From assembly GCF_002234675.1 (NCBI RefSeq), contig NC_019875.2:24828299-24892298 (forward strand): DNA of 64,000 bases, given 5' to 3'. The DNA comes from Oryzias latipes (Eukaryota > Chordata > Actinopteri > Beloniformes > Adrianichthyidae). A model generated the notes under the pieces. It made no database searches, was not told where the DNA came from, and was given only the letters and a program-made list of their open reading frames with translations. Below, in pieces: positions 3-63,075 of the stretch (positions are counted from its first letter, which is position 1; each line of letters begins with the position of its first letter). A program made the translations under genes and the position numbers.

Positions 3-6740
<6,738 letters not shown>

Positions 6741-23100: not shown

Positions 23101-26100
23101 AAACAAATGAGTCATCTTTTTGCCCGAAAGATATGACCTTGAATTGACTTCCCAGTTTTAAATTGACCCTATGGAAAAGAAAATAACAATCTTCCGTTTG
23201 GTTGAATTTTTGCAAATCAGAAGTAAATTAAGTATTTAACCTTTAAGGACACATGCAAAATATCTACAGACAGTTTCAGTTTTTTAAAATGAAATTGCAT
23301 GTAATAGCATTTTCATTTGAAATATAGATTTTTCGGAAAACCAAAGCTTAAATACATTAAACACTAACTTCGGTCCCATTTGGACCGCTTTGGGAAAATA
23401 TTGTATGACGTTAAACCTGTCCGTGGCCTAAAAAAGGCTGCAGACTGCTGTTTTATACAACTATGAAGAAGACTTTCACTTTGAAATGTTTGAGAACTGA
23501 GCCTGAAGTTAAAGTATGTGTATCTTTTTGTTTTTATTTTTTTCTAACACTCGCATCTTTTTTATTCAGAAAATTGGAAGCCAATAGATCCGGAGGAGAA
23601 GAAGCGGTACGACAGGGAGTTTCTACTTCGCTTCCAGTTCAGCAACGCCAGTATGCACAAACCCGAGGGCCTGCCCGTCATCAGTGATGTCGTCCTGGAC
23701 AAGGTAGGAAACGCTTGATTGGTCGAAAATTCCCTTAAAAATGCCATGGAAGTAACACTTTTTGCATAACTTTTAAAATTCTAATCAAGTTTGATTTTAT
23801 AGCTCTCTTTATACAAGTTCTGAGACTTTTTGCTGCTTTAATTTTAGGTGAACAAAACTCCGCTACGACCTCCTGATCCATCTCGGCTAGCAAACGCTGG
23901 TCCGGATTTTACCCCCTCTTTTATGGGGAATCTGGGAAGCAGATCAATGGGAGGACCTCGAGGCCCGGTGAGTCAATTTGTTGCATTTTTTTTCAGAGGT
24001 TGTCGCTCTATTATAATCTTAAACTAATTAATTTACTTGGATAATAATTAGTTGATGAAGTGTATTATTCTTATTTTCTTGAATATTTTGGTCTAAAACA
24101 AGAACATGTCCTCCCTCGCCTTTTTAGCCTCCTGGGCCGCGTCGCTCCCAGCAAGGCCAGCGAAAAGAACCCAGGAAAATTATCAGCAGCCTCGGTGAGG
24201 ACATCCAGCTCAACAAAGCCGAAAAAGCCTGGAAGCCATCCGTGAAGAAGCCGAATGCCCGTGCTGCCGAGGAGGTCGACGATGACGACCCAGAAAACGC
24301 CAAGACCCGGGAGCTGTTCAAGCGTCTGCGCAGCATCCTGAACAAGCTGACTCCGCAGAAGTTCCAGGAGCTGATGAAGCAGGTGTCGGAGCTGGCTATA
24401 GACACAGAAGAGAGGCTGAAGGGAGCCATCGACCTCATCTTCGAGAAGGCCATCTCAGAGCCCAACTTCTCTGTGGCCTACGCCAACATGTGCCGCTGCC
24501 TTATGGGGGTAAGACATGGAGCTGGGGTTTTCCGCTCTGATGATGACTCCTGTTTTGTGCCACGTGTCTGGGCCACTGAATGCTCATGATGGCAATGAGG
24601 ATCTGAAGAAGCCTTAAACTATGTATTACTTTAAACAGTGCAAATGTTGCACAATTCAGAATTAATCATGAAATGCCCAATTTTCATGCTCGGCTTCCAC
24701 AGTTGAAAGTTCCCACCCCAGACAAACCAGGAAATTTTGTGAACTTCCGAAAACTGCTGCTCAACCGCTGCCAGAAAGAATTTGAGAAGGACCAGGATGA
24801 TGACGAAATCTTCGAGAGGAAGCAGAAAGAGTTGGATGCTTCCAAAGATGTACGAGACGGTCAACTGGTGCATTTATAGAGGTAAACGGGAGACGTTTCT
24901 GTTGTTCTCACCTGAACACCTTGCATCTCCGCTCAGGATGAGGAGCGAGAACGCCTGAGGGTGGAGCTGGAAGAATCCAAAGACAAAGCCCGAAGACGCT
25001 CACTGGGCAACATAAAGTTCATTGGAGAGCTTTTCAAGCTGAAGATGCTGACAGAAGCCATCATGCACGACTGTGTTGTGAAACTTCTTAAAAACCATGA
25101 CGAAGAGTCTCTCGAGTGCCTCTGCAGACTACTGTCAACTATTGGCAAAGACCTGGACTTTGAGAAAGCCAAGGTGAGGATTTCTTTTACAAAACAATCA
25201 GAAAAAAAATCTGAACCTCAAGTCTTCTCCAGGTATGATGTTTGTTTTTCTGGGTCTGCACATGTAGTGATGAGGACTTGAGCAGATTGTTTTACGTGAG
25301 TGTTTTGGAATTTTAAGCCTGTTTTCTGTCTGTTCCAGCCTCGCATGGATCAGTACTTCACCCAGATGGACAAGATCATCAAAGAGAAAAAGACGTCTTC
25401 AAGAATTCGCTTCATGTTACAAGATGTTCTTGATCTCCGAAGGGTAGGAAACCGTACACCAACATTAGTTATGTAGCACACTTATATAGCACTGCACTAC
25501 CTTCTTAGAAGGCCGAAAGCGCTTTACAACCTATTCACCCATGCACACACACACATTCCCAGCTCCGCTGCTGAACACTGGCACAAACTTAATAACAGCA
25601 TGGAGCAATGTGGGGTTCAGTGTCTTGGCCAAGGACAAAAACCTACAGTCTTCCAATCAGAGGTCGACCGCTCTACCTCTGCACCATGGCCGCAGAGGGA
25701 ACACTTTTTGTTCAAATGGTTGAACTTTTGCATTTCTGCTCCTCAGAATAACTGGGTGCCCCGCAGAGGAGACCTGGGCCCCAAAACGATCGACCAGATC
25801 CACAAAGAGGCAGAGATGGAGGAGCACAGGGAGCAGATCAAGGTCCAGCAGCAACTCATGTCAAGAAAGGAGCCCGGAGGCAGGATGGGGGGCAACATGG
25901 GGGGACGGGGCTCTCACTCATCAGGAGGTGGACGGGTTAGCCAGCCTCAGGATGAGGGCTGGAATACGGTCCCCATTTCAAAGAATCGACCCATTGACGC
26001 CACCCGCCTTAGCAAGATCACAAAGGCAAGAAAGAGACGCAGACATCTAGTTTTTTGTTAAACCAAATCTCATGTTTTGTCAGTATCTTTGATTCCGTTC

Positions 26101-29100
26101 CATTTAGTTTTAAGTGTCTGTGTTTTCTCCAGACTGGTACCATGGACCTTAACAATCAGCTGCTGGCTCCTGGAGGTAAAGGCATGTGGAGTAGCTGGGG
26201 AAAAGGCAGCAGTGGAGGGAGTGGAGCGAAACCAGCAAGTGGAGAACAAGGTAAAATATAAAAAGCAAATTTATATTTAAAAAAAAACAAAACTGAAGAG
26301 TTTTTGTTACTTTGTCTGAGTTTTAATGATTGTTTTTTTTCCCTCCCATTTCCAGACTCTGGTCGTCCGGCTACGAGCACTCTAAACCGCTTCTCCGCTC
26401 TGCAGCAGTCAGGTTCTCTAATGGCGTCAACAGAAACGGATCGAAGAGTTCCTCAAAGGTATGCAGACAGAGCATCTGTTGTTGAAATCTGTCGTTTTGT
26501 CTGTCGTGTTTTGGCTATATGCTCGGTGGGTTGTTTATTTTCCTATTATCCCTACTAAAGATTAAGTACAACAAATTATTTGATTAGAAATTAGATTTGT
26601 TTTAAAACAATAACTTATTTTCCCAATTCTTTCAGGTCGAGCTCAAGCCGCGAACGTGGCGGAGACAGAGACAGAAGTGAGCGCGACAGGGATCGCTTTG
26701 ACAGGTTTGCTCGCAGCGAGGAACAGGGGGGAGACCAGTTCACCAAGAGGAGCTTCAGCAGAGAGTCGAAGGATCGCGGCAGCCGGGGCGGAGACAGCCG
26801 GGCTTCAAACGAACCAGTGCGCCGTGTCGCCAGCATGACTGACGATCGCGACCGGGGAAGCCGCGACAGAGGCAGCAGAGACCGCGGGAGTCGGGATAGA
26901 GGAAGCCGGGACAGGGGGAGTCGGGACCGGGGCCCAAGCAAAGACCTCCCAGGTATGAAACCTGACAGGAAAGCAAAGGTTTCAAAACACTTTTGCAGCT
27001 GTGAGATTTGAGTTTGAGGAGGGAAAAGAATAAGTAACCTTTTATTTTGATCTGGTTTCTCAGCAGTTAGACGTGAAAGCGCTCCCACTCCTCCTCCCTC
27101 TCTTCCTAAGCCTGCCTTGACCGAGGAGCAAGTGGAAAAGAAAGCAAATGCCATCATTGAAGAATACCTCCACATCAATGATGTGAAGGTACAGAAATGA
27201 CACTCACTCTTGCTAAAGTACAACTTGAAATCCCCTTCAGTTGAGTTGACCAGCTTTCTGGATGTTTCCTCTCTGTGTGTCATTGTAGGAGGCGTTGCAG
27301 TGTGTTGCAGAGCTGAACAGTGCCTCACTACTCTATGTGTTTGTACGGAACTGTGTGGAGTCCACACTCGAACGCAGCACCATTGCTCGGGAGCACATGG
27401 GTCTGCTGCTGCACAATCTTGTAAAAGCAGGAACTTTGCCCACACAGCAATACTTCAAAGGGTGAGTTTAGCTCGTGGTTGGAACTTTTGTCTCTGAATC
27501 GTCAGATGTGGACGTTAAAACGATGCGGCGTGCTTTGTTCTGGACCTGTTGCAGGCTAGAAGAGATCCTGGAAGCAGCGGAGGACATGGCCATAGACATA
27601 CCTCACATCTGGCTGTACCTGGCTGAACTGATCACCCCTATGCTCCACGAAGGAGGCATCCCCATGGGACAGCTGTTCAGGTGAGTGCTGGGACAGTCCA
27701 GGAGCTGAGCCGACAACTCCTGCTTAGATGCAAAATGTCTGGAGGGAGGAAGCCGGTTGACTGACTGATTTTACAGTTATGAATAATAAGAGAGTAAAAC
27801 TCTTGGTGGCTCTTAATTTCTGTCATTTTACTTCAAATATTTGTTTTATTCACTTATAGGGTGAAAACTGACTATGGGTTAGGATTGAGATTAGGGATTT
27901 TGCTGATGTTTCTCAGATATTGATTCCTATGGATGACCCAAACATAAATCCTTGTTTTTGTTTTTCTAATTTCAAAGGCAATAAACGTAAAATTCCAAAA
28001 TTCAGTTCCAAACTAAATTTAATCCCACTTGAAGATCAAGGTTCAGTAAAAAAACACAAAATTTAACAAATTACAGCAACACATAGGTTGTCAACTTCTT
28101 TATGCTGATTGTTCCAAAATACGTATCACACTGCATTATTTACTTATCTCAACTGAATTTAGAATCAACTTAAAAGCAAAAGTGAAACATTTTCCCAAGT
28201 TGGAAATAAAGGGGTTAAAGGCCTTTTTAGAATCAGGAATTCTGAAAGTGAAAATGAGACAGTTCTTCTAATCTGAGAGTCAGATGAATCTCAAATACCA
28301 GCATCACAAATGTGGGATTTTTTTATTGCAACCATGTAACTGTTAGGAACATTTTCCTTTACAAATGTCTTTCTCTTTTGAATAAGCAGCCTTCATGTGG
28401 GGCACTTGTGTTTTCAGGGAGATCTCAAAGCCTCTGGTGCCTCTGGGGAAGGCCGGCGTGCTGCTGGCACAGATCCTCCAGCTCCTCTGCAAAGGAATGG
28501 TACGTACAAGCAGACGTAGAGCGACGGCACGCCAAAGGCCTCATTTACATATGCATGCTTGTTTTGGAGTCTATAGAAATACTTGGAATGTCTGGTAAAT
28601 TCTGACAGAAATGTGAAATATTTTAATATTTTTAATGGAGGAACAGGAGGATTTATAAGTAAACCTAAATGTTGCATTTACTTAAAACAAGCCACAGCTT
28701 TTCTAATAATAAATATCCATTGAGTTATTTTAGTTAAAAAATAACTTTTGGTAACAAACGTATACCTGACATGTTTTCTGTTAAATATTATTCTTAAACT
28801 TAACTTATAAACCTCTCCCCTTCATATTCTTGCTCTTATCTTGTGGAACATGCAGACTCCTCAGAAGGTCGGGGCTTTATGGAAAGAGGCTGGACTGAGC
28901 TGGAATGAAATCTTGCCCAAGGATGAAGATGTCAACACGTTTGTCACAGATCAGGTAGGCAGGATTTGTTCCGAAAACAGAACAGTTTGGCTGGTTCTGG
29001 GTTTGTTCAATTCAAACGGCTGCTGCTGCTGCTGAAAATAAAGCAGACAGCTGAGGGCCTTTCCTTTCCTTTCCTGTCAGTTTGACCTTTTATGTAAAAC

Positions 29101-30174
29101 GCACCCACCAGTTTGTGCAATGAAGAAAATGTGAATTGGAATTTAAATGTCCTGTAAATGTTCTAATGGTCTGAAATCTACTTCAACACATTGTTGTTGT
29201 TTTTATTTTGTTTCTTTTAGAAAGTTGAATTCACTGTAGATGAAGAAATGAAGTCAAAGGACGTCGGGAGGAAAAATGTCCTCAGTGGAGAAGAGATCAG
29301 TAAACAGCTGGACAGACTCCTGCAAGACAAGGCCAACAACCAACGGATCCGGGACTGGATTGAGGTGTGGAGCTCTTTTCTTGTGTTCTGGGGGGGGGGT
29401 CATTTTTCTGCATGTGTGTAACCATGTTTTCTTCATTTTTCATCGTAATCACTTTATTTCACGTTCCTCACTCGATTGTTTTTTCCTTTCACAGGCTAAT
29501 TTGGAGGATCAGCAGACGGTGAACAACCAGTTTATACGAAGGTTGATGACATCAGTGTGCCAGTCGGTCATCATATGTAAGTATGAGTGATGTAGTCTGT
29601 ATGTGTCCTGTATTGCTCATCCATGTTCGTGTTTTTCTTACAGCAGCAACAACCTGAAAGTAACTGCAGACACTCAAATTTAGAATTGCAGATGAAACCG
29701 TTTATCCTGTTTATGGATTTTGTTTTTAGGCGATAATCCATACAAGGTGGATATGGAGCAGATCAAGAATAGAGCCCCTCTGCTGCAGAGATACCTGTGT
29801 GATGAGGAGAAGGAGCTGCAGGCCCTCTATGCCCTCCAGGCTCTCATGGTTCACATGGAGCAGCCTGCAAGTCGGTATCAAGCTCAGATTGTGCACAAAT
29901 ATTGTGTTTGTATTAAATGTTTGTGTGTTTATATTTTTCTATGGAAACCGGGGTGAAAACTGATCGTCTTTATTTGCATGTCGTCTCTGCAGACCTGCTG
30001 CTGATGTTCTTCAACACTCTGTACGATGAGGACGTGATTAAAGAGGAGGCCTTCTACAAATGGGAATCCAGCAAAGACTCTGCAGAGCAAACAGGCAAAG
30101 GCGTCGCCCTAAAATCCGTCACCACCTTCTTCACTTGGCTCCGCGAGGCCGAGGAAGAGTCTGACAAGGATTGA
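11138..30174 (+). CDS. eif4g1: eukaryotic translation initiation factor 4 gamma 1
   Basis: Scaffold of eIF4F; binds PABP, eIF4E, eIF4A, eIF3 and Mnk. Coding exons: 11138-11212, 11291-11377, 11617-11649, 12701-12721, 12965-13141, 13776-13872, 19292-19440, 19645-19737, 20840-20915, 20989-21849, 21926-22014, 22129-22312, 23570-23703, 23848-23967, 24128-24508, 24703-24849, 24937-25173, 25339-25443, 25747-26025, 26133-26250, 26356-26458, 26636-26952, 27064-27188, 27289-27461, 27555-27680, 28418-28499, 28856-28954, 29221-29364, 29495-29576, 29730-29870, 29993-30174. They total 5037 nt (1678 aa; human about 1600), all in phase. Seen: start [15 protein letters not shown]-binding region [15 protein letters not shown]; a long Pro/Glu-rich low-complexity exon (20989-21849); eIF4E-binding motif [12 protein letters not shown]4G/HEAT-1 around [13 protein letters not shown] to the [10 protein letters not shown] segment; an Arg-Gly-Ser repeat; MA3; and a W2 domain ending [12 protein letters not shown]. 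The 12701-12721 microexon is the weakest call. Confidence 0.95.
13327..13702 (+). repeat. short inverted-terminal repeat element in an eif4g1 intron, copy 1
   Basis: Begins GTAGGGCTGGACGATTTG and ends GTATATTGTGCGGGCC; the reverse complement of the end resembles the start. Inside are GATATTG/GCGATA blocks and CCCATTTCATTGCAACAG. A diverged second copy lies at 16820-17218. This matches the general look of non-autonomous hAT-like elements common in fish; the class is recalled, not tested. Confidence 0.55.
15202..16688 (+). mobile_element. pogo-like DNA transposon remnant (non-autonomous)
   Basis: A 1.49-kb block bounded by about 26-bp terminal inverted repeats with one mismatch: CATTTACCGTAATTTCCGG at the left, and at the right the reverse complement of CATTTACCGTAAATTCCGG. 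Subterminal sequence (ACTACAAGCCG...; CGGCTTGTAATCGGG) is also inverted. Near 15529-15561 the + strand reads [11 protein letters not shown], the start of the helix-turn-helix DNA-binding region of pogo-like transposases. No full transposase frame remains, and the frames inside (for example a 203-aa one on the minus strand) are probably not genes. It lies in the 13873-19291 intron of eif4g1. Confidence 0.65.
16820..17218 (+). repeat. short inverted-terminal repeat element, copy 2
   Basis: Starts TTAGGGTTGCACGATTTGTGG and shares block order with the copy at 13327-13702: GATATTAGCGAT, CATTTCACTGCAGCAG, GGCTCCAATTGGTTGATCA, CTTTTGCGATAAG, CGCGATGACAAT. It is the diverged sister copy in the same eif4g1 intron. 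Confidence 0.5.
17440..17600 (+). repeat. interspersed repeat fragment, second of two copies
   Basis: Shares TTTATCAAACTCATTACAG, GATGAAATGCATGGAT, GTAGAGCTTGATTTATTGCT and AGTGGGAGG with 7441-7700. It sits in the long eif4g1 intron. The rest of that intron (17600-19291) shows a C/T-rich tract with a G-rich stretch near 18418-18460, but no supported exon. Confidence 0.6.
20200..20695 (+). repeat. MITE-like repeat, copy B (eif4g1 intron)
   Basis: Same element as 4683-5144. It contains AAATTCACCTCTTGGTTGTGG, GAGCAACCCCGCCCC, TTGATTCACAACGATGTAAATG, ATGTGCCATCATGTG and GAACATGTGGGGTGGGTC. It lies between coding exons 19645-19737 and 20840-20915. Confidence 0.55.
24534..24612 (+). ncRNA. snord66: C/D-box snoRNA, likely SNORD66 homologue
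   Basis: Inside the 194-nt intron 24509-24702 of eif4g1. C box ATGATGA (24540-24546), D' box CTGA (24576-24579), C' box ATGATGG (24586-24592) and D box CTGA (24603-24606) occur in the right order and spacing. The stretch just before D' (24558-24575, CACGTGTCTGGGCC) can pair with the conserved 18S rRNA segment GGCCCGGACACG, with one G-U pair. The +5 rule then points at the middle C of GGCCC, the site I recall as 18S C1272 for human SNORD66. Human SNORD66 is also hosted in an EIF4G1 intron. Boxes are seen directly; rRNA target and human host are from memory. The terminal stem is weak. Confidence 0.8.
25478..25735 (+). repeat. teleost interspersed repeat in an eif4g1 intron
   Basis: Contains CACTTATATAGCACTGCACT, GAAAGCGCTTTACAAC, CATGCACACACACACATTCC, GGGTTCAGTGTCTTGGCCAAGGAC and GGTCGACCGCTCTACCTCTGC. 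This block order is very frequent in fish genomes (from memory). It occupies almost the whole intron between exons 25339-25443 and 25747-26025. Confidence 0.7.
26850..26932 (+). repeat. eif4g1: in-frame 15-nt tandem repeat coding DRGSR
   Basis: About five and a half units of Asp-Arg-Gly-Ser-Arg inside coding exon 26636-26952. Codons vary between units (CGG/CGC/AGA/AGG; AGC/AGT), so the protein pattern is better conserved than the DNA. It lies in the Arg-rich linker between the middle HEAT region and the MA3 domain. Confidence 0.85.
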
Positions 30175-31332
30175 GGCAACAACAAAACAACACAACAACA
30201 AAAAAGCTGCCGCTTAACTTTATCAAGAATTGTGCTCTGTAGGCAGCTGTGGAGACTCAAAGACAATGTTGCCAGTGTGGCAGACTCAAATAAGTCCTCA
30301 ATGAGGACACATCTTTTTTTCTCCCTCCTTTTTCTTTTCTGTGAGAGATGGACTCAGAAAATAATGTCTCTCCTCCCTTTCCTGTTGTCCTCAAATAAAC
30401 TTGAAAACGCATTCAGCAGGACTGCTTTTTAATGAGGTGTGAGAAACCCCACATCACTACAAAACTCTGTCAAGTAGCACAAACCAAGTGGCTGCTTGAA
30501 TCTCGACAGTTGCAACGCCCCAACATGTCATCCGACTTGCAGGAAGAAAACGAACAGGGAGTGTGACGCGGTGGCTTCCCTGACCCCTTGGTTTAACGCT
30601 GTGTGTGTTCAAGCACGGCTCTTGTGTCTGTCCTTTACTGGAGTGTGCAGCATGACTGAAGTGTGTTTCTATTCATGATCTAGTGGGACAAAATGTTGGT
30701 AGATAAAAATGTACATGAGCTAATCATAATTTGCCAGATGGAGTTTTTAAGAGAAAAGGTTGTCTATTTTCACCTTCTGTTTCCTATCTTGAGCCTAACA
30801 AAAGGACTAATGCTGACTTGGTCTACCTGGGTGTGGACTTGTGCTTCCTCTAAGCCATCCTCTCCCACACCCAGTAGAGAACCATATGGACTGACTCAGC
30901 TGTTCCAGAGGACTCTTATGACCCAATCAGTTAAAACTTGAAGTCGGTGGAGAAATTACCTTGATAAAATATATATATATATAAATAAATATATACAATG
31001 AAAGGAAAAAAACTAAAACAAAAAAAAAATAGGTGATCTGAAAGCCTTTTCTACTTTAAGTGGAAACTTATTTCAGGATTGTTCCATAAATATAATAGAC
31101 TTTTTTTCAGTTTTATTTTTCAGAAACGATAATTTTCTGATATAATTGCAGTGTCTCATTTTCCAGGAGAAACATCAGTCGCCCGAATGCAGAGAAGAGT
31201 TTTTTGATAATCCATTGATTATTAGTTTTATTTGACTTTTTTTGTAAATATTTTTTTTCTTTTCTCTCTATTTAATAAATTCTTGCTTCTTTTGCATCTA
31301 AAACTGGAAAGATGAGATCATTGAACATTGAA

Positions 31333-31338
31333 AATAAA
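31333..31338 (+). terminator. eif4g1: poly(A) signal of eif4g1 cassette 1
   Basis: AATAAA at the end of a conserved 3' UTR about 1.16 kb after the stop. The same signal recurs at 35351-35356, 39374-39379 and 44119-44124, one per tandem unit. An earlier AATAAA lies near 31274. Confidence 0.6.
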
Positions 31339-31429
31339 GGATGAATGAGTTGCTGAGCAGACGTTTCTTGATTGCCTCAGATGTTTTTTTTTTTATTTTG
31401 AATGCATTGGTATTTTTTAGTATTAGATG

Positions 31430-31850
31430 TTAATCATCTTTTGATCTATTGTAAAATAGTTCCCAGTGGTCATTTAATTATGATTCTGACGTTTTTAACC
31501 CAGATTTTAAAAAAACGTGTCCTTTTCTAGGACCAGAGCGGCAACAGTTCATTCGAAATTCACCTCTGAGTTCTGGGCGAGACTCTAACCACACTTCCCA
31601 TCATCCCTTTGTTTATACTTTCCTGCTATAGCTTGCAGCACCTCACACCCACAACCTAACATTACTGCTGCGACAAAAATGGCAAGCAATATTGGAGCTA
31701 TCTAGCCCAACAGCTTTGTGCTAGATACCAGCTCAGCTACATCTGGGTGGATCGTCCACAGGTGGATGCATCAGAATGGTACACATTTTTTGTCCTGAAT
31801 CACAACGATTTGAATAAACAAACACTTGCAAATGCAATTTGAAGTTTTTG
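31430..31850 (+). repeat. MITE-like repeat, copy C, truncated by a Tc1 fragment
   Basis: Reads like copies A, B and D from TTAATCATCTTTTGATCTATTG through AACAGTTCATTCGAAATTCACC to ATCACAACGATTTGAATAAA. It then switches to Tc1-like sequence where the MITE end should be. It is repeated with the tandem units, near 35453-35873 and 39476-39896. Confidence 0.55.
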
Positions 31851-32140
31851 GTATTTTGGCCCATTCCTCCATGCAGATCTCCTCTAGAGCAGTGATGTTT
31901 TGGGGCTGTTGCTAGGCAACAATGACTCTCAACTCCCTCCAAATATTTTTTTATGGGATTGAGATCTGGATACTGGCTAGGCCACTCCAGGACCTTGAAA
32001 TGCTTCTTATGAAGCTGCTCCTTCATCACCCGGCAGTGTGTTTGGGATCGTTGTCATGCTGAAAGACACAGCCGCGTTTCATCTCCAATGCCCTTGCTGA
32101 TGGAAGGTTCTCACTCAAAATCTGACAATACATTCATTCT
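31851..32140 (-). mobile_element. Tc1-like transposase fragment, tandem unit 1
   Basis: On the minus strand the frame 32029-31733 contains [20 protein letters not shown], close to the conserved DDE-domain segment of Tc1-like transposases (usually WPSQSPDLNPIE). The expected acidic residue after NPI is Lys here. Nearby sequence (TTTGGGATCGTTGTCATGCT) is also typical of Tc1 elements. It is a broken piece, not a gene. Confidence 0.75.
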
Positions 32141-32284
32141 TTATAATAATCAGTATAAATCAGTAGTAATACCAGCATCACATATATGGGATTTTTTTCT
32201 TTCATACAGAGTTATTGCAACCACTTTTGCTGTTGTATTTAATTTGAATGTTATTTCTGAATGTCCTTTTTGTTGCTGCAGATA

Positions 32285-32325
32285 AGGGAATTTCCCCATC
32301 GAGGGATAAATAAAGTTATCTAATC
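32285..32325 (+). repeat. retroposon 3'-tail-like sequence in tandem units 2-4
   Basis: GGGAATTTCCCCATCGAGGGATAAATAAAGTTATCTAATC resembles the 3' tails of fish LINEs. It is present before the first exon of units 2, 3 and 4 (again near 36308 and 40331) but absent from unit 1. Together with flanking sequence it accounts for much of the length difference there. Confidence 0.45.
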
Positions 32326-32418
32326 TAAAGTAAACTTAACTGTTAGGAACATTCCACCTTTTAAAATTTCTCGCTTTGTTAAATAAGCAGCCTTCATGTG
32401 GGGCACTTGTGTTTTCAG

Positions 32419-34196
32419 GGAGATCTCAAAGCCTCTGGTGCCTCTGGGGAAGGCCGGCGTGCTGCTGGCACAGATCCTCCAGCTCCTCTGCAAAGGAATG
32501 GTACGTACAAGCAGACGTAGAGCGACGGCACGCCAAAGGCCTCATTTCCATGTACATGCTTAGAATGTCTCGTTAATTCTGACAGAAATGTAAAATATTT
32601 TAATATTTTGAATGGAGTAACAGAATGATTTATGAATTAATCTAAATGTTGCATTTACTTGATACAAACCACAGATTTTTAAAAATAAATATCCATTGAT
32701 TTAATTTAGTCAAAAAAGAACTTTTGGTAACAAACTTAGACAAACTGTTTTCTGTTAAATATTATTCTTAAACGTAACTACAACAACATGACATGTTTTC
32801 TGTTAAATATTATTCTTAAACTTAACTTATAAACCTCTCCCCCTCATATTCTTGCTCTTATCTTGTGGAACATGCAGACTCCTCAGAAGGTCGGGGCTTT
32901 ATGGAAAGAGGCTGGACTGAGCTGGAATGAAATCTTGCCCAAGGATGAAGATGTCAACACGTTTGTCACAGATCAGGTAGGCAGGATTTGTTCAGAAAAC
33001 AGAACAGTTTGGCTGGTTCTGGGTTTGTTCAATTCAAACGCCTGCTGCTGCTGCTGAAAATAAAGCAGACAGCTGAGGCCCTTTCCTTTCCTTTCCTGTC
33101 AGTTTGACCTTTTATGTAAAACGCACCCACCAGTTTGTGCAATGAAGAAAATGTGAATTGGAATTTAAATGTCCTGTAAATGTTCTAATGGTCTGAAATC
33201 TACTTCAACACATTGTTGTTGTTTTTATTTTGTTTCTTTTAGAAAGTTGAATTCACTGTAGATGAAGAAATGAAGTCAAAGGACGTTGGGAGGAAAAATG
33301 TCCTCAGTGGAGAAGAGATCAGTAAACAGCTGGACAGACTCCTGCAAGACAAGGCCAACAACCAACGGATCCGGGACTGGATTGAGGTGTGGAGCTCTTT
33401 TCTTGTGTTCTGGGGGGGGGGTCATTTTTCTGCATGTGTGTAACCATGTTTTCTTCATTTTTCATCGTTATCACTTTATTTCACGTTCCTCACTCGATTG
33501 TTTTTTCCTTTCACAGGCTAATTTGGAGGATCAGCAGACGGTGAGCAACCAGTTTATACGAAGGTTGATGACATCAGTGTGCCAGTCGGTCATCATATGT
33601 AAGTATGAGTGATGTAGTCTGTATGTGTCCTGTATTGCTCATCCATGTTCGTGTTTTTCTTACAGCAGCAACAACCTGAAAGTAACTGCAGACACTCAAA
33701 TTTAAATTTGCAGATGAAACCGTTTATCCTGTTTATGGATTTTGTTTTTAGGCGATAATCCATACAAGGTGGATATGGAGCAGATCAAGAATAGAGCCCC
33801 TCTGCTGCAGAGATACCTGTGTGATGAGGAGAAGGAGCTGCAGGCCCTCTATGCCCTCCAGGCTCTCATGGTTCACATGGAGCAGCCTGCAAGTCAGTAT
33901 CAAGCTCAGATTGTGCACAAATATTGTGTTTGTATTAAATGTTTGTGTGTTTATATTGTTCTATGGAAACTGGGGAGAAAACTGATCGTCTTTATGTGCA
34001 TGTCGTCTCTGCAGACCTGCTGCTGATGTTCTTCAACACTCTGTACGATGAGGACGTGATTAAAGAGGAGGCCTTCTACAAATGGGAATCCAGCAAAGAC
34101 TCTGCAGAGCAAACAGGCAAAGGCGTCGCCCTAAAATCCGTCACCACCTTCTTCACTTGGCTCCGCGAGGCCGAGGAAGAGTCTGACAAGGATTGA
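32419..34196 (+). CDS. eif4g1 C-terminal cassette 2 (duplicate terminal exons)
   Basis: Exons 32419-32500, 32878-32976, 33243-33386, 33517-33598, 33752-33892, 34015-34196 (TGA). They encode the end of the MA3 region and the W2 domain (Mnk-binding region in the family), starting [13 protein letters not shown] and ending [12 protein letters not shown]. The one amino-acid difference from cassette 1 that I see is VSNQF for VNNQF. There is no upstream start of its own. It could only be expressed by splicing from exon 27555-27680 over cassette 1, or by local transcription. All splice sites are intact. Possibly non-functional. Confidence 0.8.
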
Positions 34197-35873
34197 GGCA
34201 ACAACAAAACAACACAACAACAAAAAAGCTGCCGCTTAACTTTATCAAGAATTGTGCTCTGTAGGCAGCTGTGGAGACTCAAAGACAATGTTGCCAGTGT
34301 GGCAGACCCAAATAAGTCCTCAATGAGGACACATCTTTTTTTCTCCCTCCTTTTTCTTTTCTGTGAGAGATGGACTCAGAAAATAATGTCTCTCCTCCCT
34401 TTCCTGTTGTCCTCAAATAAACTTGAAAACGCATTCAGCAGGACTGCTTTTTAATGAGGTGTGAGAAACCCCACATCACTACAAAACTCTGTCAAGTAGC
34501 ACAAACCAAGTGGCTGCTTGAATCTCGACAGTTGCAACGCCCCAACATGTCATCCGACTTGCAGGAAGAAAACGAACAGGGAGTGTAACACGGTGGCTTC
34601 CCTGACCCCTTGGTTTAACGCTGTGTGTGTTCAAGCACGGCTCTTGTGTCTGTCCTTTACTGGAGTGTGCAGCATGACTGAAGTGTGTTTCTATTCATGA
34701 TCTAGTGGGACAAAATGTTGGTAAATAAAAATGTACATGAGCTAATCATAATTTGCCAGATGGAGTTTTTAAGAGAAAAGGTTGTCTATTTTCACCTTCT
34801 GTTTCCTATCTTGAGCCTAACAAAAGGACTAATGCTGACTTGGTCTACCTGGGTGTGGACTTGTGCTTCCTCTAAGCCATCCTCTTCCACACCCAGTAGA
34901 GAACCATATGGACTGACTCAGCTGTTCCAGAGGACTCTTATGACCCAATCAGTTAAAACTTGAAGTCGGTGGAGAAATTACCTTGATAAAATATATATAT
35001 ATAAATAAATATATACAATGAAAGGAAAAAAACTAAAACAAAAAAAAAATAGGTGATCTGAAAGCCTTTTCTACTTTAAGTGGAAACTTATTTCAGGATT
35101 GTTCCATAAATATAATAGACTTTTTTTCAGTTTTATTTTTCAGAAACGATAATTTTCTGATATAATTGCAGTGTCTCATTTTCCAGGAGAAACATCAGTC
35201 GCCCGAATGCAGAGAAGAGTTTTTTGATAATCCATTGATTATTAGTTTTATTTGACTTTTTTTGTAAATATTTTTTCTTTTCTCTCTATTTAATAAATTC
35301 TTGCTTCTTTTGCATCTAAAACTGGAAAGATGAGATCATTGAACATTGAAAATAAAGGATGAATGAGTTGCTGAGCAGACGTTTCTTGATTGCCTCAGAT
35401 GTTGGTGTTTTTTTTTTATTTTGAATTGATTGGTATTTTTTAGTATTAGATGTTAATCATCTTTTGATCTATTGTAAAATAGTTCCCAGTGGTCATTTAA
35501 TTATGATTCTGACGTTTTTAAAACAGATTTTAAAAAAACGTGTCCTTTTCTAGGACCAGAGCGGCAACAGTTCATTCGAAATTCACCTCTGTGTTCTGGG
35601 CGAGACTCTAACCACACTTCCCATCATCCCTTTGTTTATACATTCCTGCTATAGCTTGCAGCACCTCACACCCCCAACCTAACATTACTGCTGCGACAAA
35701 AATGGCAAGCAATATTGGAGCTATCTAGCCCAACAGCTTTGTGCTAGATACCAGCTCAGCTACATCTGGGTGGATCGTCCACAGGTGGATGCATCAGAAT
35801 GGTACACATTTTTTGTCCTGAATCACAACGATTTGAATAAACAAACACTTGCAAATGCAATTTGAAGTTTTTG

Positions 35874-36163
35874 GTATTTTGGCCCATTCCTCCATGCAGA
35901 TCTCCTCTAGAGCAGTGATGTTTTGGGGCTGTTGCTAGGCAACAATGACTCTCAACTCCCTCCAAATATTTTTTTATGGGATTGAGATCTGGATACTGGC
36001 TAGGCCACTCCAGGACCTTGAAATGCTTCTTATGAAGCTGCTCCTTCATCACCCGGCAGTGTGTTTGGGATCGTTGTCATGCTGAAAGACACGGCCGCGT
36101 TTCATCTCCAATGCCCTTGCTGATGGAAGGTTCTCACTCAAAATCTGACAATACATTCATTCT
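35874..36163 (-). mobile_element. Tc1-like transposase fragment, tandem unit 2
   Basis: Copy of the fragment at 31851-32140, carried along in the tandem duplication. The minus-strand frame 36052-35756 is unchanged in protein sequence. Confidence 0.75.
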
Positions 36164-36441
36164 TTATAATAATCAGTATAAATCAGTAGTAATACCAGCA
36201 TCACATATATGGGATTTTTTTCTTTCATACAGAGTTATTGCAACCACTTTTGCTGTTGTATTTAATTTGAATGTTATTTCTGAATGTCCTTTTTGTTGCT
36301 GCAGATAAGGGAATTTCCCCATCGAGGGATAAATAAAGTTATCTAATCTAAAGTAAACTTAACTGTTAGGAACATTCCACCTTTTAAAATTTCTCGCTTT
36401 GTTAAATAAGCAGCCTTCATGTGGGGCACTTGTGTTTTCAG

Positions 36442-38219
36442 GGAGATCTCAAAGCCTCTGGTGCCTCTGGGGAAGGCCGGCGTGCTGCTGGCACAGATCC
36501 TCCAGCTCCTCTGCAAAGGAATGGTACGTACAAGCAGACGTAGAGCGACGGCACGCCAAAGGCCTCATTTCCATGTACATGCTTAGAATGTCTCGTTAAT
36601 TCTGACAGAAATGTAAAATATTTTAATATTTTGAATGGAGTAACAGAAGGATTTATGAATTAATCTAAATGTTGCATTTACTTGATACAAACCACAGATT
36701 TTTAAAAATAAATATCCATTGATTTAATTTAGTCAAAAAAGAACTTTTGGTAACAAACTTAGACAAACTGTTTTCTGTTAAATATTATTCTTAAACGTAA
36801 CTACAACAACATGACATGTTTTCTGTTAAATATTATTCTTAAACTTAACTTATAAACCTCTCCCCCTCATATTCTTGCTCTTATCTTGTGGAACATGCAG
36901 ACTCCTCAGAAGGTCGGGGCTTTATGGAAAGAGGCTGGACTGAGCTGGAATGAAATCTTGCCCAAGGATGAAGATGTCAACACGTTTGTCACAGATCAGG
37001 TAGGCAGGATTTGTTCAGAAAACAGAACAGTTTGGCTGGTTCTGGGTTTGTTCAATTCAAACGCCTGCTGCTGCTGCTGAAAATAAAGCAGACAGCTGAG
37101 GCCCTTTCCTTTCCTTTCCTGTCAGTTTGACCTTTTATGTAAAACGCACCCACCAGTTTGTGCAATGAAGAAAATGTGAATTGGAATTTAAATGTCCTGT
37201 AAATGTTCTAATGGTCTGAAATCTACTTCAACACATTGTTGTTGTTTTTATTTTGTTTCTTTTAGAAAGTTGAATTCACTGTAGATGAAGAAATGAAGTC
37301 AAAGGACGTTGGGAGGAAAAATGTCCTCAGTGGAGAAGAGATCAGTAAACAGCTGGACAGACTCCTGCAAGACAAGGCCAACAACCAACGGATCCGGGAC
37401 TGGATTGAGGTGTGGAGCTCTTTTCTTGTGTTCTGGGGGGGGGGTCATTTTTCTGCATGTGTGTAACCATGTTTTCTTCATTTTTCATCGTTATCACTTT
37501 ATTTCACGTTCCTCACTCGATTGTTTTTTCCTTTCACAGGCTAATTTGGAGGATCAGCAGACGGTGAGCAACCAGTTTATACGAAGGTTGATGACATCAG
37601 TGTGCCAGTCGGTCATCATATGTAAGTATGAGTGATGTAGTCTGTATGTGTCCTGTATTGCTCATCCATGTTCGTGTTTTTCTTACAGCAGCAACAACCT
37701 GAAAGTAACTGCAGACACTCAAATTTAAATTTGCAGATGAAACCGTTTATCCTGTTTATGGATTTTGTTTTTAGGCGATAATCCATACAAGGTGGATATG
37801 GAGCAGATCAAGAATAGAGCCCCTCTGCTGCAGAGATACCTGTGTGATGAGGAGAAGGAGCTGCAGGCCCTCTATGCCCTCCAGGCTCTCATGGTTCACA
37901 TGGAGCAGCCTGCAAGTCAGTATCAAGCTCAGATTGTGCACAAATATTGTGTTTGTATTAAATGTTTGTGTGTTTATATTGTTCTATGGAAACTGGGGAG
38001 AAAACTGATCGTCTTTATGTGCATGTCGTCTCTGCAGACCTGCTGCTGATGTTCTTCAACACTCTGTACGATGAGGACGTGATTAAAGAGGAGGCCTTCT
38101 ACAAATGGGAATCCAGCAAAGACTCTGCAGAGCAAACAGGCAAAGGCGTCGCCCTAAAATCCGTCACCACCTTCTTCACTTGGCTCCGCGAGGCCGAGGA
38201 AGAGTCTGACAAGGATTGA
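36442..38219 (+). CDS. eif4g1 C-terminal cassette 3 (duplicate terminal exons)
   Basis: Exons 36442-36523, 36901-36999, 37266-37409, 37540-37621, 37775-37915, 38038-38219. Each is exactly 4023 bases after the cassette 2 exon. The encoded protein is the same as cassette 2. Splice sites, stop and UTR are intact, with the same doubt about expression as for cassette 2. Confidence 0.8.
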
Positions 38220-39896
38220 GGCAACAACAAAACAACACAACAACAAAAAAGCTGCCGCTTAACTTTATCAAGAATTGTGCTCTGTAGGCAGCTGTGGAGA
38301 CTCAAAGACAATGTTGCCAGTGTGGCAGACCCAAATAAGTCCTCAATGAGGACACATCTTTTTTTCTCCCTCCTTTTTCTTTTCTGTGAGAGATGGACTC
38401 AGAAAATAATGTCTCTCCTCCCTTTCCTGTTGTCCTCAAATAAACTTGAAAACGCATTCAGCAGGACTGCTTTTTAATGAGGTGTGAGAAACCCCACATC
38501 ACTACAAAACTCTGTCAAGTAGCACAAACCAAGTGGCTGCTTGAATCTCGACAGTTGCAACGCCCCAACATGTCATCCGACTTGCAGGAAGAAAACGAAC
38601 AGGGAGTGTAACGCGGTGGCTTCCCTGACCCCTTGGTTTAACGCTGTGTGTGTTCAAGCACGGCTCTTGTGTCTGTCCTTTACTGGAGTGTGCAGCATGA
38701 CTGAAGTGTGTTTCTATTCATGATCTAGTGGGACAAAATGTTGGTAAATAAAAATGTACATGAGCTAATCATAATTTGCCAGATGGAGTTTTTAAGAGAA
38801 AAGGTTGTCTATTTTCACCTTCTGTTTCCTATCTTGAGCCTAACAAAAGGACTAACGCTGACTTGGTCTACCTGGGTGTGGACTTGTGCTTCCTCTAAGC
38901 CATCCTCTTCCACACCCAGTAGAGAACCATATGGACTGACTCAGCTGTTCCAGAGGACTCTTATGACCCAATCAGTTAAAACTTGAAGTCGGTGGAGAAA
39001 TTACCTTGATAAAATATATATATATAAATAAATATATACAATGAAAGGAAAAAAACTAAAACAAAAAAAAAATAGGTGATCTGAAAGCCTTTTCTACTTT
39101 AAGTGGAAACTTATTTCAGGATTGTTCCATAAATATAATAGACTTTTTTTCAGTTTTATTTTTCAGAAACGATAATTTTCTGATATAATTGCAGTGTCTC
39201 ATTTTCCAGGAGAAACATCAGTCGCCCGAATGCAGAGAAGAGTTTTTTGATAATCCATTGATTATTAGTTTTATTTGACTTTTTTTGTAAATATTTTTTC
39301 TTTTCTCTCTATTTAATAAATTCTTGCTTCTTTTGCATCTAAAACTGGAAAGATGAGATCATTGAACATTGAAAATAAAGGATGAATGAGTTGCTGAGCA
39401 GACGTTTCTTGATTGCCTCAGATGTTGGTGTTTTTTTTTTATTTTGAATTGATTGGTATTTTTTAGTATTAGATGTTAATCATCTTTTGATCTATTGTAA
39501 AATAGTTCCCAGTGGTCATTTAATTATGATTCTGACGTTTTTAAAACAGATTTTAAAAAAACGTGTCCTTTTCTAGGACCAGAGCGGCAACAGTTCATTC
39601 GAAATTCACCTCTGTGTTCTGGGCGAGACTCTAACCACACTTCCCATCATCCCTTTGTTTATACATTCCTGCTATAGCTTGCAGCACCTCACACCCCCAA
39701 CCTAACATTACTGCTGCGACAAAAATGGCAAGCAATATTGGAGCTATCTAGCCCAACAGCTTTGTGCTAGATACCAGCTCAGCTGCATCTGGGTGGATCG
39801 TCCACAGGTGGATGCATCAGAATGGTACACATTTTTTGTCCTGAATCACAACGATTTGAATAAACAAACACTTGCAAATGCAATTTGAAGTTTTTG

Positions 39897-40186
39897 GTAT
39901 TTTGGCCCATTCCTCCATGCAGATCTCCTCTAGAGCAGTGATGTTTTGGGGCTGTTGCTAGGCAACAATGACTCTCAACTCCCTCCAAATATTTTTTTAT
40001 GGGATTGAGATCTGGATACTGGCTAGGCCACTCCAGGACCTTGAAATGCTTCTTATGAAGCTGCTCCTTCATCACCCGGCAGTGTGTTTGGGATCGTTGT
40101 CATGCTGAAAGACACGGCCGCGTTTCATCTCCAATGCCCTTGCTGATGGAAGGTTCTCACTCAAAATCTGACAATACATTCATTCT
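39897..40186 (-). mobile_element. Tc1-like transposase fragment, tandem unit 3
   Basis: Third copy of the 31851-32140 fragment (minus-strand frame 40075-39779). It is the last copy of this particular piece in the array. Confidence 0.75.
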
Positions 40187-40464
40187 TTATAATAATCAGT
40201 ATAAATCAGTAGTAATACCAGCATCACATATATGGGATTTTTTTCTTTCATACAGAGTTATTGCAACCACTTTTGCTGTTGTATTTAATTTGAATGTTAT
40301 TTCTGAATGTCCTTTTTGTTGCTGCAGATAAGGGAATTTCCCCATCGAGGGATAAATAAAGTTATCTAATCTAAAGTAAACTTAACTGTTAGGAACATTC
40401 CACCTTTTAAAATTTCTCGCTTTGTTAAATAAGCAGCCTTCATGTGGGGCACTTGTGTTTTCAG

Positions 40465-43084
40465 GGAGATCTCAAAGCCTCTGGTGCCTCTGGGGAAGGC
40501 CGGCGTGCTGCTGGCACAGATCCTCCAGCTCCTCTGCAAAGGAATGGTACGTACAAGCAGACGTAGAGCGACGGCACGCCAAAGGCCTCATTTCCATGTA
40601 CATGCTTAGAATGTCTCGTTAATTCTGACAGAAATGTAAAATATTTTAATATTTTGAATGGAGTAACAGAATGATTTATGAATTAATCTAAATGTTGCAT
40701 TTACTTGATACAAACCACAGATTTTTAAAAATAAATATCCATTGATTTAATTTAGTCAAAAAAGAACTTTTGGTAACAAACTTAGACAAACTGTTTTCTG
40801 TTAAATATTATTCTTAAACGTAACTACAACAACATGACATGTTTTCTGTTAAATATTATTCTTAAACTTAACTTATAAACCTCTCCCCCTCATATTCTTG
40901 CTCTTATCTTGTGGAACATGCAGACTCCTCAGAAGGTCGGGGCTTTATGGAAAGAGGCTGGACTGAGCTGGAATGAAATCTTGCCCAAGGATGAAGATGT
41001 CAACACGTTTGTCACAGATCAGGTAGGCAGGATTTGTTCAGAAAACAGAACAGTTTGGCTGGTTCTGGGTTTGTTCAATTCAAACGGCTGCTGCTGCTGC
41101 TGAAAATAAAGCAGACAGCTGAGGCCCTTTCCTTTCCTTTCCTGTCAGTTTGACCTTTTATGTAAAACGCACCCACCAGTTTGTGCAATGAAGAAAATGT
41201 GAATTGGAATTTAAATGTCCTGTAAATGTTCTAATGGTCTGAAATCTACTTCAACACATTGTTGTTGTTTTTATTTTGTTTCTTTTAGAAAGTTGAATTC
41301 ACTGTAGATGAAGAAATGAAGTCAAAGGACGTTGGGAGGAAAAATGTCCTCAGTGGAGAAGAGATCAGTAAACAGCTGGACAGACTCCTGCAAGACAAGG
41401 CCAACAACCAACGGATCCGGGACTGGATTGAGGTGTGGAGCTCTTTTCTTGTCTTCTGCTTTTTTTTTTTTTTAATAGTACATGAAGGTTAACGGCTGGC
41501 CAGAAAAAACGTCAACAAAAGAATCTTTTCTTCCCAAAACTGTTTCTCTCCTTAATTCCTGATAGCACCTACTTTAAATTGATGTGGATGATGCAGTCTG
41601 TTATTTTTGTGTGTTTTAATCTATTCTATTAATTTATCTATTTTTACTGTGTTTGGCCGTGTTGAAGGATAAATTTCTGTTCATTGAACAAACAATAAAG
41701 TTGATCTAAATCTACTGTAACTCTAACTGAATTAAAATCAGTTGATTCAAAAGCGGCTTTGCCCCATGAAGTCAGGGCAAAACCGATATGAAAAGCCGTT
41801 TTTTTCCCCACAGAATCAGCTGATTTATGTTTGCGTAAACGATCCGAGAGTTACGGTCTGTCAAGGCGGTTTATTTAGATGTCGCTGGCGATATCTATCA
41901 TGTTTAAAGGTTACAAATGAGAGGAAACCCACCTTTCTGTTGTTGGTTCTTTTGTTTTTTTTTTAATCCACATAGTTTGGTTGGGATGGAAACTGGGCAG
42001 TTTCTGTAAATAAGAATATCTGATGAATATGTGCAGCTGATCACTTCCACTCCCAAAATATTAAACATAGTGTTGATTTGACTTCTCTTTAGTTTTTGTC
42101 ACTTTTGGATTGAAAGTTTAAATTCAGTAATGATGCTGTAGCCGGGATTGCTCTGCTCCATTTCGTTTTAGTTTCCGCTGCAGCATTCATTGACACAAAC
42201 AGAATTTTTCTTGCTCTTGTAATTAAATGTTTGCTATTTTTCTAATGTTTCTGCTCCTTCATAAAAACAGCTGAATCTTAACGAGGAGAAAACTAGTCTA
42301 CTAAGGATAGCTGGTTTTTGTAATTTGTAACCATGTTGTCTTCATTTTTCATCGTAATCACTTTATTTCACGTTCCTCACTCGATTGTTTTTTTCCTTTC
42401 ACAGGCTAATTTGGAGGATCAGCAGACGGTGAACAACCAGTTTATACGAAGGTTGATGACATCAGTGTGCCAGTCGGTCATCATATGTAAGTATGAGTGA
42501 TGTAGTCTGTATGTGTCCTGTATTGCTCATCCATGTTCGTGTTTTTCTTACAGCAGCAACAACCTGAAAGTAACTGCAGACACTCAAATTTAGAATTGCA
42601 GATGAAACCGTTTATCCTGTTTATGGATTTTGTTTTTAGGCGATAATCCATACAAGGTGGATATGGAGCAGATCAAGAATAGAGCCCCTCTGCTGCAGAG
42701 ATACCTGTGTGATGAGGAGAAGGAGCTGCAGGCCCTCTATGCCCTCCAGGCTCTCATGGTTCACATGGAGCAGCCTGCAAGTCAGTATCAAGCTCAGATT
42801 GTGCACAAATATTGTGTTTGTATTAAACGTTTGTGTGTTTATATTGTTCTATGGAAACTGGGGAGAAAACTGATCGTCTTTATGTGCATGTCGTCTCTGC
42901 AGACCTGCTGCTGATGTTCTTCAACACTCTGTACGATGAGGACGTGATTAAAGAGGAGGCCTTCTACAAATGGGAATCCAGCAAAGACTCTGCAGAGCAA
43001 ACTGGCAAAGGCGTCGCCCTAAAATCCGTCGCCATCTTCTTCACTTGGCTCCGGGAGGCTGATGAAGAGTCCGACACGGATTGA
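40465..43084 (+). CDS. eif4g1 C-terminal cassette 4, diverged at its end
   Basis: Exons 40465-40546, 40924-41022, 41289-41432, 42405-42486, 42640-42780, 42903-43084. The first three exons match cassettes 2/3. From 42405 on it resembles cassette 1 (VNNQF, and the same intronic TTTAGAATTGCAG), and its last exon has private changes: [19 protein letters not shown] against [19 protein letters not shown]. The third intron is about 970 bases instead of 130. The frame is intact. As the outermost unit, it may be the original 3' end of the gene. Confidence 0.8.
41460..42330 (+). repeat. unit-4-specific intron sequence (probable insertion)
   Basis: Replaces a short intron segment of the other units just after TCTTTTCTTGTCTTCTG, beginning with a long T run. 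It contains GGATAAATTTCTGTTCATTGAACAAACAATAAAG, which resembles a retroposon 3' end. No coding sequence recognised. The original intron resumes at about 42330 (ACCATGTTGTCTTCATTTTTC). Confidence 0.5.
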
Positions 43085-43473
43085 GGCAACAACAAAACAA
43101 TAACACAACAACAAAAAAGCTGCCGCTTAACTTTATCAAGAATTGTGCTCTGTAGGCAGCTGTGGAGACTCAAAGACAATGTTGCCAGTGTGGCAGACTC
43201 AAATAAGTCCTCAATGAGGACACATCTTTTTTTCTCCCTCCTTTTTCTTTTCTGTGAGAGATGGACTCAGAAAATAATGATGTTTCTCCTCCCTTTCCTG
43301 TTGTCCTCAAATAAAATTGAAAACGCATTCAGAAGGACTGCTTTTTAATGAGGTGTGAGAAACCCCACATCACTACAAAACTCTGTCAAGTAGCACAAAC
43401 CAAGTGGCTGCTTGAATCTCTCCAGTTGCAACGCCCCAACATGTCATCCGACTTATAATTAAAACTATAACAA

Positions 43474-43477
<4 letters not shown>

Positions 43478-43568
<91 letters not shown>
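43478..43568 (+). repeat. (TA)n microsatellite in the unit-4 3' UTR
   Basis: About 45 uninterrupted TA dinucleotides. It sits in a stretch (43455-43813) that replaces the corresponding UTR of the other units. Homology to the other UTRs returns at GGTGATCTGAAAGCC. Confidence 0.95.
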
Positions 43569-43570
<2 letters not shown>

Positions 43571-44147
43571 CCTCAAAAGGTTGAGCCACAAAATAATTAG
43601 TTATGGGTACCATCAGTTTTGTCTAGCACTATTTCATTAGTTTGTTTTTAAAAAGAATTCTGTTAATCAAAAACTCAAAGGTAATGGCTGATTTTGATTA
43701 TTTAATTTTCAAATTTTTTTTATTTATTGTTACTTTTGAATGTTTCAAGTCATTTCAGTGAGCATTGTGGACTTTCTTTAACTGAGGGGTACCAACAAGA
43801 GAGAGAGAGAGAAGGGTGATCTGAAAGCCTTTTCTACTTTAAGTGGAAACTTATTTCAGGATTGTTCCATAAATATAATAGACTTTTTTTCAGTTTTATT
43901 ATTCAGAAACAATAATTTTCTAATATAATCGCTGTGTCCCCTTTTGCCAGAAGAAACATCATTCGCCCGGATGCAGAGAAGAGTTTTTTGATAATCCATT
44001 GATTATTAGTTTTATTTGACTTTTTTTGTAAATATTTCTTTTTTCTTTTCTCTCTATTTAAGAAATTCTTGCTTCTTTCGCATCTAAAACTGGAAAGATG
44101 AGATCATTGAACATTGAAAATAAAGGATGAATGAGTTGCTGAGCAGA

Positions 44148-44275
44148 CATACAGTTTCTTTCTCCTCCAAACACGACAATTATAGTTCTAACCAAAAAAC
44201 TCTATTTTGGTTAATCTGGCCATAGGACATTCTCTTAATCCTCTTCTGGATCATCCAAATACTCTAGTAAAAATA
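44148..44275 (-). mobile_element. Tc1-like transposon fragment at the array end
   Basis: TTCTCCTCCAAACACGAC, CAAAAAACTCTATTTTGGTT, GGCCATAGGACATTCTC and CTTCTGGATCATCCAAAT are recognisable antisense pieces of a Tc1-like transposase. In an intact element this part would follow the part present at 31851-32140 in the same orientation. Confidence 0.7.

Positions 44276-47510: not shown

Positions 47511-50678
<3,168 letters not shown>

Positions 50679-52947: not shown

Positions 52948-63075
<10,128 letters not shown>

Follow-up and report, generated by a model that had tools for sequence, protein, structure and literature searches.

The window analysed here, a stretch of 64,000 nucleotides of the Oryzias latipes genome (contig NC_019875.2), holds the 3' end of eif4g1 in four versions. 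According to self-comparison of the window, the six C-terminal exons (the end of MA3, then W2), together with a stop codon and poly(A) signals, are present as four direct copies at 28294-44148 (Table 1). The exons, rebuilt from the alignment, have lengths of 82, 99, 144, 82, 141 and 182 bases, and follow each other in the same order in every copy. AG is found at all 24 acceptors within the cassettes, and GT at all 20 donors. When the preceding exon is joined to each cassette in turn, all four translations remain open up to the stop, which is followed in each copy by at least two AATAAA motifs before the homologous 3' part ends; candidate poly(A) signals of copy 4 lie at 43310 and 44119. Tandem homologous exons with kept order and intact splice sites are what is expected of a terminal-exon cluster. 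No repeat of the exons upstream of 27680 was found in the window at an E threshold of 1e-20 and a length above 150 bases.

The translated stretch matches eIF4G1 of PDB 6zmw, a chain that we take to be human, through its last residues (E=1.8e-121). Pfam scans of copies 1 and 4 matched MA3 and W2, in agreement with an eIF4G1 C-terminal region. An earlier note on this DNA had named the gene, counted and placed the exons, and claimed four repeats with intact splice sites and frames, with copy 3 exactly 4023 bases from copy 2. All of this is confirmed, the spacing at each of the six exons. Clean homology of copies 1 and 2 begins at 28337 and 32337, respectively, and that of copy 4 ends at 44148. 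The start at 28295 that had been proposed is nevertheless fair, because 28294-28330 also matches 32168-32204 (89%).

Table 1. Coordinates of the eif4g1 3' end array within the window
Feature	Position	Strand	Remarks
Last exon before the array (MA3 domain)	27555-27680	+	common donor for all cassettes; leaves two bases of a split codon
Cassette 1	28294-31362	+	homology, splice sites, stop, 3' part
Cassette 1 exons	28418-28499, 28856-28954, 29221-29364, 29495-29576, 29730-29870, 29993-30174	+	
Cassette 1 AATAAA (3' part)	30394, 30984, 31274, 31333	+	
Exon 1 with 83 flanking intronic bases	28382-28546	+	identical in all four copies
Spacer after cassette 1	31363-32162	+	recurs after cassettes 2 and 3
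Unit 2 (4023 bases)	32337-36359	+	cassette 2, 3' part, spacer, 5' flank of next unit
Cassette 2 exons	32419-32500, 32878-32976, 33243-33386, 33517-33598, 33752-33892, 34015-34196	+	
Unit 3 (4023 bases)	36360-40382	+	4 differences from unit 2
Cassette 3 exons	36442-36523, 36901-36999, 37266-37409, 37540-37621, 37775-37915, 38038-38219	+	
Cassette 4	40383-44148	+	private coding tip
Cassette 4 exons	40465-40546, 40924-41022, 41289-41432, 42405-42486, 42640-42780, 42903-43084	+	
Intron 3 block	41457-42325	+	cassette 4 only
Private 3' block of cassette 4	43455-43815	+	
Putative crossover interval	29975-30093	.	copy 1 coordinates; 70/72 informative sites

The neighbourhood of the array is ordinary. 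Upstream, a SNORD66 snoRNA (24535-24610 +, 89.1 bits), presumably intronic, lies beside a MIF4G exon of eif4g1. It is the only Rfam match of the window at the gathering score, and none falls inside the cassettes. Downstream, there is a match to CLC chloride channels (61898-62173 -), by its position probably clcn2. Human EIF4G1 hosts SNORD66 and lies near FAM131A and CLCN2, and the array therefore looks to be at the native eif4g1 locus. Downstream of the array, the frames at 50139-50675 (+) and 52951-53499 (-) have no Pfam match, which also holds for the downstream frame that had been taken for FAM131A. Elsewhere in the window, transferrin-domain matches (672-971 + and 3676-3978 +) mark a transferrin-family gene upstream of eif4g1, an open frame of 549 codons (59075-60721 +) that matches ALKBH8_N besides containing a reverse transcriptase domain represents a retrotransposon, and the eif4g1 frame 26595-27011 contains five consecutive DRGSR repeats (26850-26940 +).

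The cassettes encode almost the same protein. In the 730 coding bases, there are two differences between copies 1 and 2, none between copies 2 and 3, and nine between copies 1 and 4. Codon 117 of the translated stretch is GTC in copy 1 and GTT in the other three. At the protein level, the differences are a single N/S exchange in copies 2 and 3 (codon 160), where the serine is the residue of the 6zmw chain, and four changes inside 16 codons at the tip of copy 4 (VAIFF...DEESDTD). At these four residues, the 6zmw chain agrees with copy 1 twice, with neither copy twice, and with copy 4 never, so that the copy 4 tip looks derived, on the weak evidence of a single outgroup. Outside the coding sequence, copy 4 exceeds copy 1 by 842 bases in intron 3. 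At the very site of this extra block, cassettes 1-3 contain only a short stretch that includes a G run (about 29389-29399 in copy 1). About 490 bases in the 3' part of cassettes 1-3 are replaced in cassette 4 by 361 bases (43455-43815) that include a long TA run.

The noncoding divergence of copies 1 and 2 (50/1744 sites) exceeds the coding divergence (p=4e-6), a contrast for which one diverged segment is largely responsible. When segments are matched, coding and noncoding sites differ at 2/466 and 11/672 (p=0.09). No such contrast is seen for copies 2 and 4 (9/730 versus 24/1791, p=1), and exon 6 of copy 4 has even changed more than the adjoining 3' UTR (8/182 versus 5/364, p=0.04). Selection on the extra cassettes is therefore not demonstrated. 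The intact frames were also considered as proof of use, and were rejected as such. In 4000 simulated trials with random substitutions only and no indels, two substitutions left the frame and splice sites intact in 85% of cases, and nine in 49%, so that intactness is about at chance level for so few changes.

The diverged segment is of interest for the history of the array. The noncoding sequences of copies 1 and 2 are distinct at 38 of 379 sites in 28337-28822, versus only 3 of 319 in 28823-29384 (p=5e-8), which suggests exchange after an older duplication. Inside the diverged segment, the 83 intronic bases that flank exon 1 are unchanged, versus 38 changes at the 296 noncoding sites beyond (p=1e-4). 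This island could be a conversion tract or reflect splicing constraint, two causes that are not separable here.

The middle copies are chimeras of the outer ones. Sites were compared over 28337-29384, 29417-30538 and 31032-31362 (copy 1 coordinates), which excludes the spacer, any gap columns, the 3' block that could not be aligned and the sequence at the block of intron 3. At 72 informative sites, copy 1 alone or copy 4 alone deviates. Copies 2 and 3 resemble copy 4 on the left and copy 1 on the right, and 70 of the 72 sites fit a single breakpoint; both misfits are copy-4-only changes left of it. None of 10000 label shuffles matched this fit, a count that serves only as a guide, since neighbouring sites are not independent if conversion occurred. 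Unequal crossing-over of an outer left with an outer right unit would leave a new middle copy with this pattern. The history was not one clean event, because copies 2 and 3 agree against 1 and 4 at six further sites, as would result from changes in the hybrid before its doubling, and copies 1 and 3 agree against 2 and 4 at one. Of 4023 bases, only 4 distinguish unit 2 from unit 3. The doubling step is therefore very recent, or else an assembly duplicate. The earlier note was right in proposing a recent duplication.

The following sequence of events would account for these patterns. An older duplication of about 3 kb may have produced two cassettes, A on the outer left and B on the outer right. 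Some of their parts then diverged, and others stayed similar through exchange. An unequal crossover of A with B, close to where exon 6 begins, would have created a hybrid B/A cassette in the middle. This hybrid would have been duplicated very recently, in a second event, as a unit of 4023 bases.

How such an array could be used is limited by phase. As had been noted before, the exon preceding the array leaves two codon bases, and only exon 1 of a cassette accepts this phase; every cassette can be joined in frame to this exon. Because none of the cassette exons leaves two codon bases in turn, a second exon 1 cannot follow in frame. The previous claim that cassettes can never be chained in frame is thus correct for whole cassettes, but goes too far otherwise. 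Homologous junctions are compatible across cassettes, exons 2, 3 and 5 are phase-symmetric, and exon 5 can be skipped in frame. In-phase combinations amount to 84 full-length mosaics and 1584 chains in total, and the frame is thus no general bar to joint inclusion. The idea of four interchangeable W2 ends is likewise possible but overstated, as 0-9 differences in 730 coding bases leave little room for protein diversity.

Since no cassette lacks splice sites, a stop or poly(A) signals, the transcript could end in any of the four. The intron from the shared donor measures 737 bases for cassette 1, and 4738, 8761 and 12784 bases for cassettes 2, 3 and 4. Having the shortest intron, and four AATAAA motifs in its homologous 3' part, cassette 1 would be the default end. 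Its acceptors are similar to those of the other cassettes over the 12 bases displayed. The exon 5 donor is GTCGGT in cassette 1 versus GTCAGT in the other three (-1.1 versus 1.46 bits, by a donor scoring table). This lower-scoring donor is the sole observation that could tip the choice towards skipping or a later cassette. Alternative endings, where used, would yield a near-identical protein with different 3' UTRs.

Taken together, the array is probably best explained as a real partial tandem duplication of the eif4g1 3' end, with cassette 1 as the default end and the other cassettes, mosaics across cassettes included, serving at most as low-level or back-up endings. The ordinary gene neighbourhood on both sides of the array speaks for this explanation. 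The array is present in the O. latipes sequence, and we infer its presence in the animal.

A closely overlapping explanation, which differs only in the use of the cassettes and to which we give somewhat less than an even chance, holds that the duplication is real, that transcription stops after cassette 1, and that cassettes 2-4 are unused passengers in decay. In its favour, cassette 1 has poly(A) signals, acceptors similar to the others and by far the shortest intron. The chance-level intactness of the cassettes, the excess of changes in exon 6 of copy 4 and the tip residues that depart from the 6zmw chain point in the same direction. The lower score of the cassette 1 exon 5 donor argues against such passengers, and so do the unchanged flanks of exon 1, unless these are a conversion tract.

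Less likely, yet to be taken seriously, is a partial artefact. The animal would then have two or three real cassettes (A, B and perhaps one hybrid), to which the assembler added a turn of 4023 bases, or it would have two hybrid alleles that were placed in tandem. The few differences between units 2 and 3 are within reach of alleles or read errors, and a homotype assembly error would equally yield such near-identical units, which counts against our preferred explanation. False exon gains inside one gene and homotype errors are both among the false duplications described in the available part of a study of genome assemblies (PMC9516828). On the other side, there is no N between the copies or anywhere in the 64,000 bases, so the gaps associated with false duplications are absent. 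The spacers that recur after cassettes 1, 2 and 3 are alike at 98.6-98.7%. Because 8 of 795 sites distinguish the spacer of copy 1 from that of copy 2, these two copies are not one stretch walked twice. In our judgement, at least two cassettes, probably three, are real, and the fourth is likely but unproved.

It is improbable, in our view, that eif4g1, as the gene of a core translation factor, has four complete six-exon C-terminal cassettes, or a number of them that varies within the population, which are homogenised by recurrent unequal exchange and used alternately and as mosaics, with RNA processing choosing among variants of the 3' UTR and of the W2 tip. The W2 tip region of eIF4G1 binds Mnk kinases.

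Still less probable is an array that is wholly artefactual, with the haplotypes and read errors of a single-copy gene placed in tandem, even though this type of error is already known, as the same part of that study indicates (PMC9516828). In this case, the stretch between copies should resemble the outer flanks. The spacer at 31363-32162 has no match to the sequence before copy 1 or after copy 4, except for 37 bases at the edge (28294-28330/32168-32204). Weak matches to 31432-31847, a portion of this spacer, occur at four further places in the window (at about 4.7-5.0, 18.0-18.2, 20.3-20.6 and 63.4-63.7 kb), and this portion is therefore considered an interspersed repeat. The first-intron divergence of about 10% is, in our judgement, high for alleles, and together with a repeat-bearing spacer that lacks homology to the outer flanks, it argues against plain haplotype misassembly. 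Chimeric middle copies and recurring spacers would also be unexpected. The original alternative of recent duplication or assembly error is thereby narrowed, although the assembly may still contain too many or too few middle copies. Finally, a regulated choice of mutually exclusive endings via competing RNA structures, as reported for fly PGRP-LC, is hardly credible, because the suitable layout (a single shared upstream intron and repeated acceptor regions) and a copy 2 pairing with that intron that only 1 of 40 shuffles equalled are offset by 29/40 shuffles at least as good for copy 1 and 7/40 for copy 4, despite equal energies for copies 2 and 4, with no consistent signal across copies 1, 2 and 4 (40 shuffles each).

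Duplicated terminal exons as such are known. In vertebrates, the final exon pair of GNAO is duplicated (7.1-8.1 and 7.2-8.2) and provides alternative ends, and in zebrafish, medaka and stickleback both sets persist in one teleost gene copy, according to the part of the GNAO study available to us (PMC5896119). Like GNAO, eif4g1 is a vertebrate gene with locally duplicated last exons. The difference is that GNAO has two sets of two exons, which the same text presents as conserved across vertebrate clades (PMC5896119), whereas eif4g1 has four near-identical sets of six exons, as candidate endings read from the DNA. The terminal-exon clusters of Drosophila pip and the 3' variable regions of PGRP-LC also provide tandem 3' ends. 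The eif4g1 array shares the tandem layout of candidate ends, but the fly endings are reported as mutually exclusive in the portion of the source at hand (PMC9013439), whereas the eif4g1 endings are predictions. For human mutually exclusive exons, clusters of up to ten are mentioned in an excerpt of another study (PMC5740500). With false exon gain, as outlined in the accessible part of PMC9516828, the array has in common that near-identical exons are repeated within one scaffold. Its freedom from N, chimeric middle units, spacer unlike the outer flanks and diverged first intron set it apart.

Judged by titles and abstract openings, none of the matches listed for published work on eif4g1, eIF4G W2/Mnk1, tandem exon duplication, alternative or teleost terminal exons, PGRP-LC and false duplication concerns an eif4g1 array. 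The array would be new in its gene, in its youth and in the extent of its unit, which comprises six exons, the stop and the 3' UTR. Ten stretches in viral contigs fitted a pattern for relatives of the cassette 1 protein, and none was confirmed.

Should the array be an artefact, it would serve as a warning that units from misassembly can mimic the products of recombination. If it is real, it represents a young terminal-exon cluster in the middle of its expansion, in a core translation gene and with a crossover still visible. It would then allow a test of whether terminal-exon clusters start as neutral passengers before a regulated choice of endings arises.
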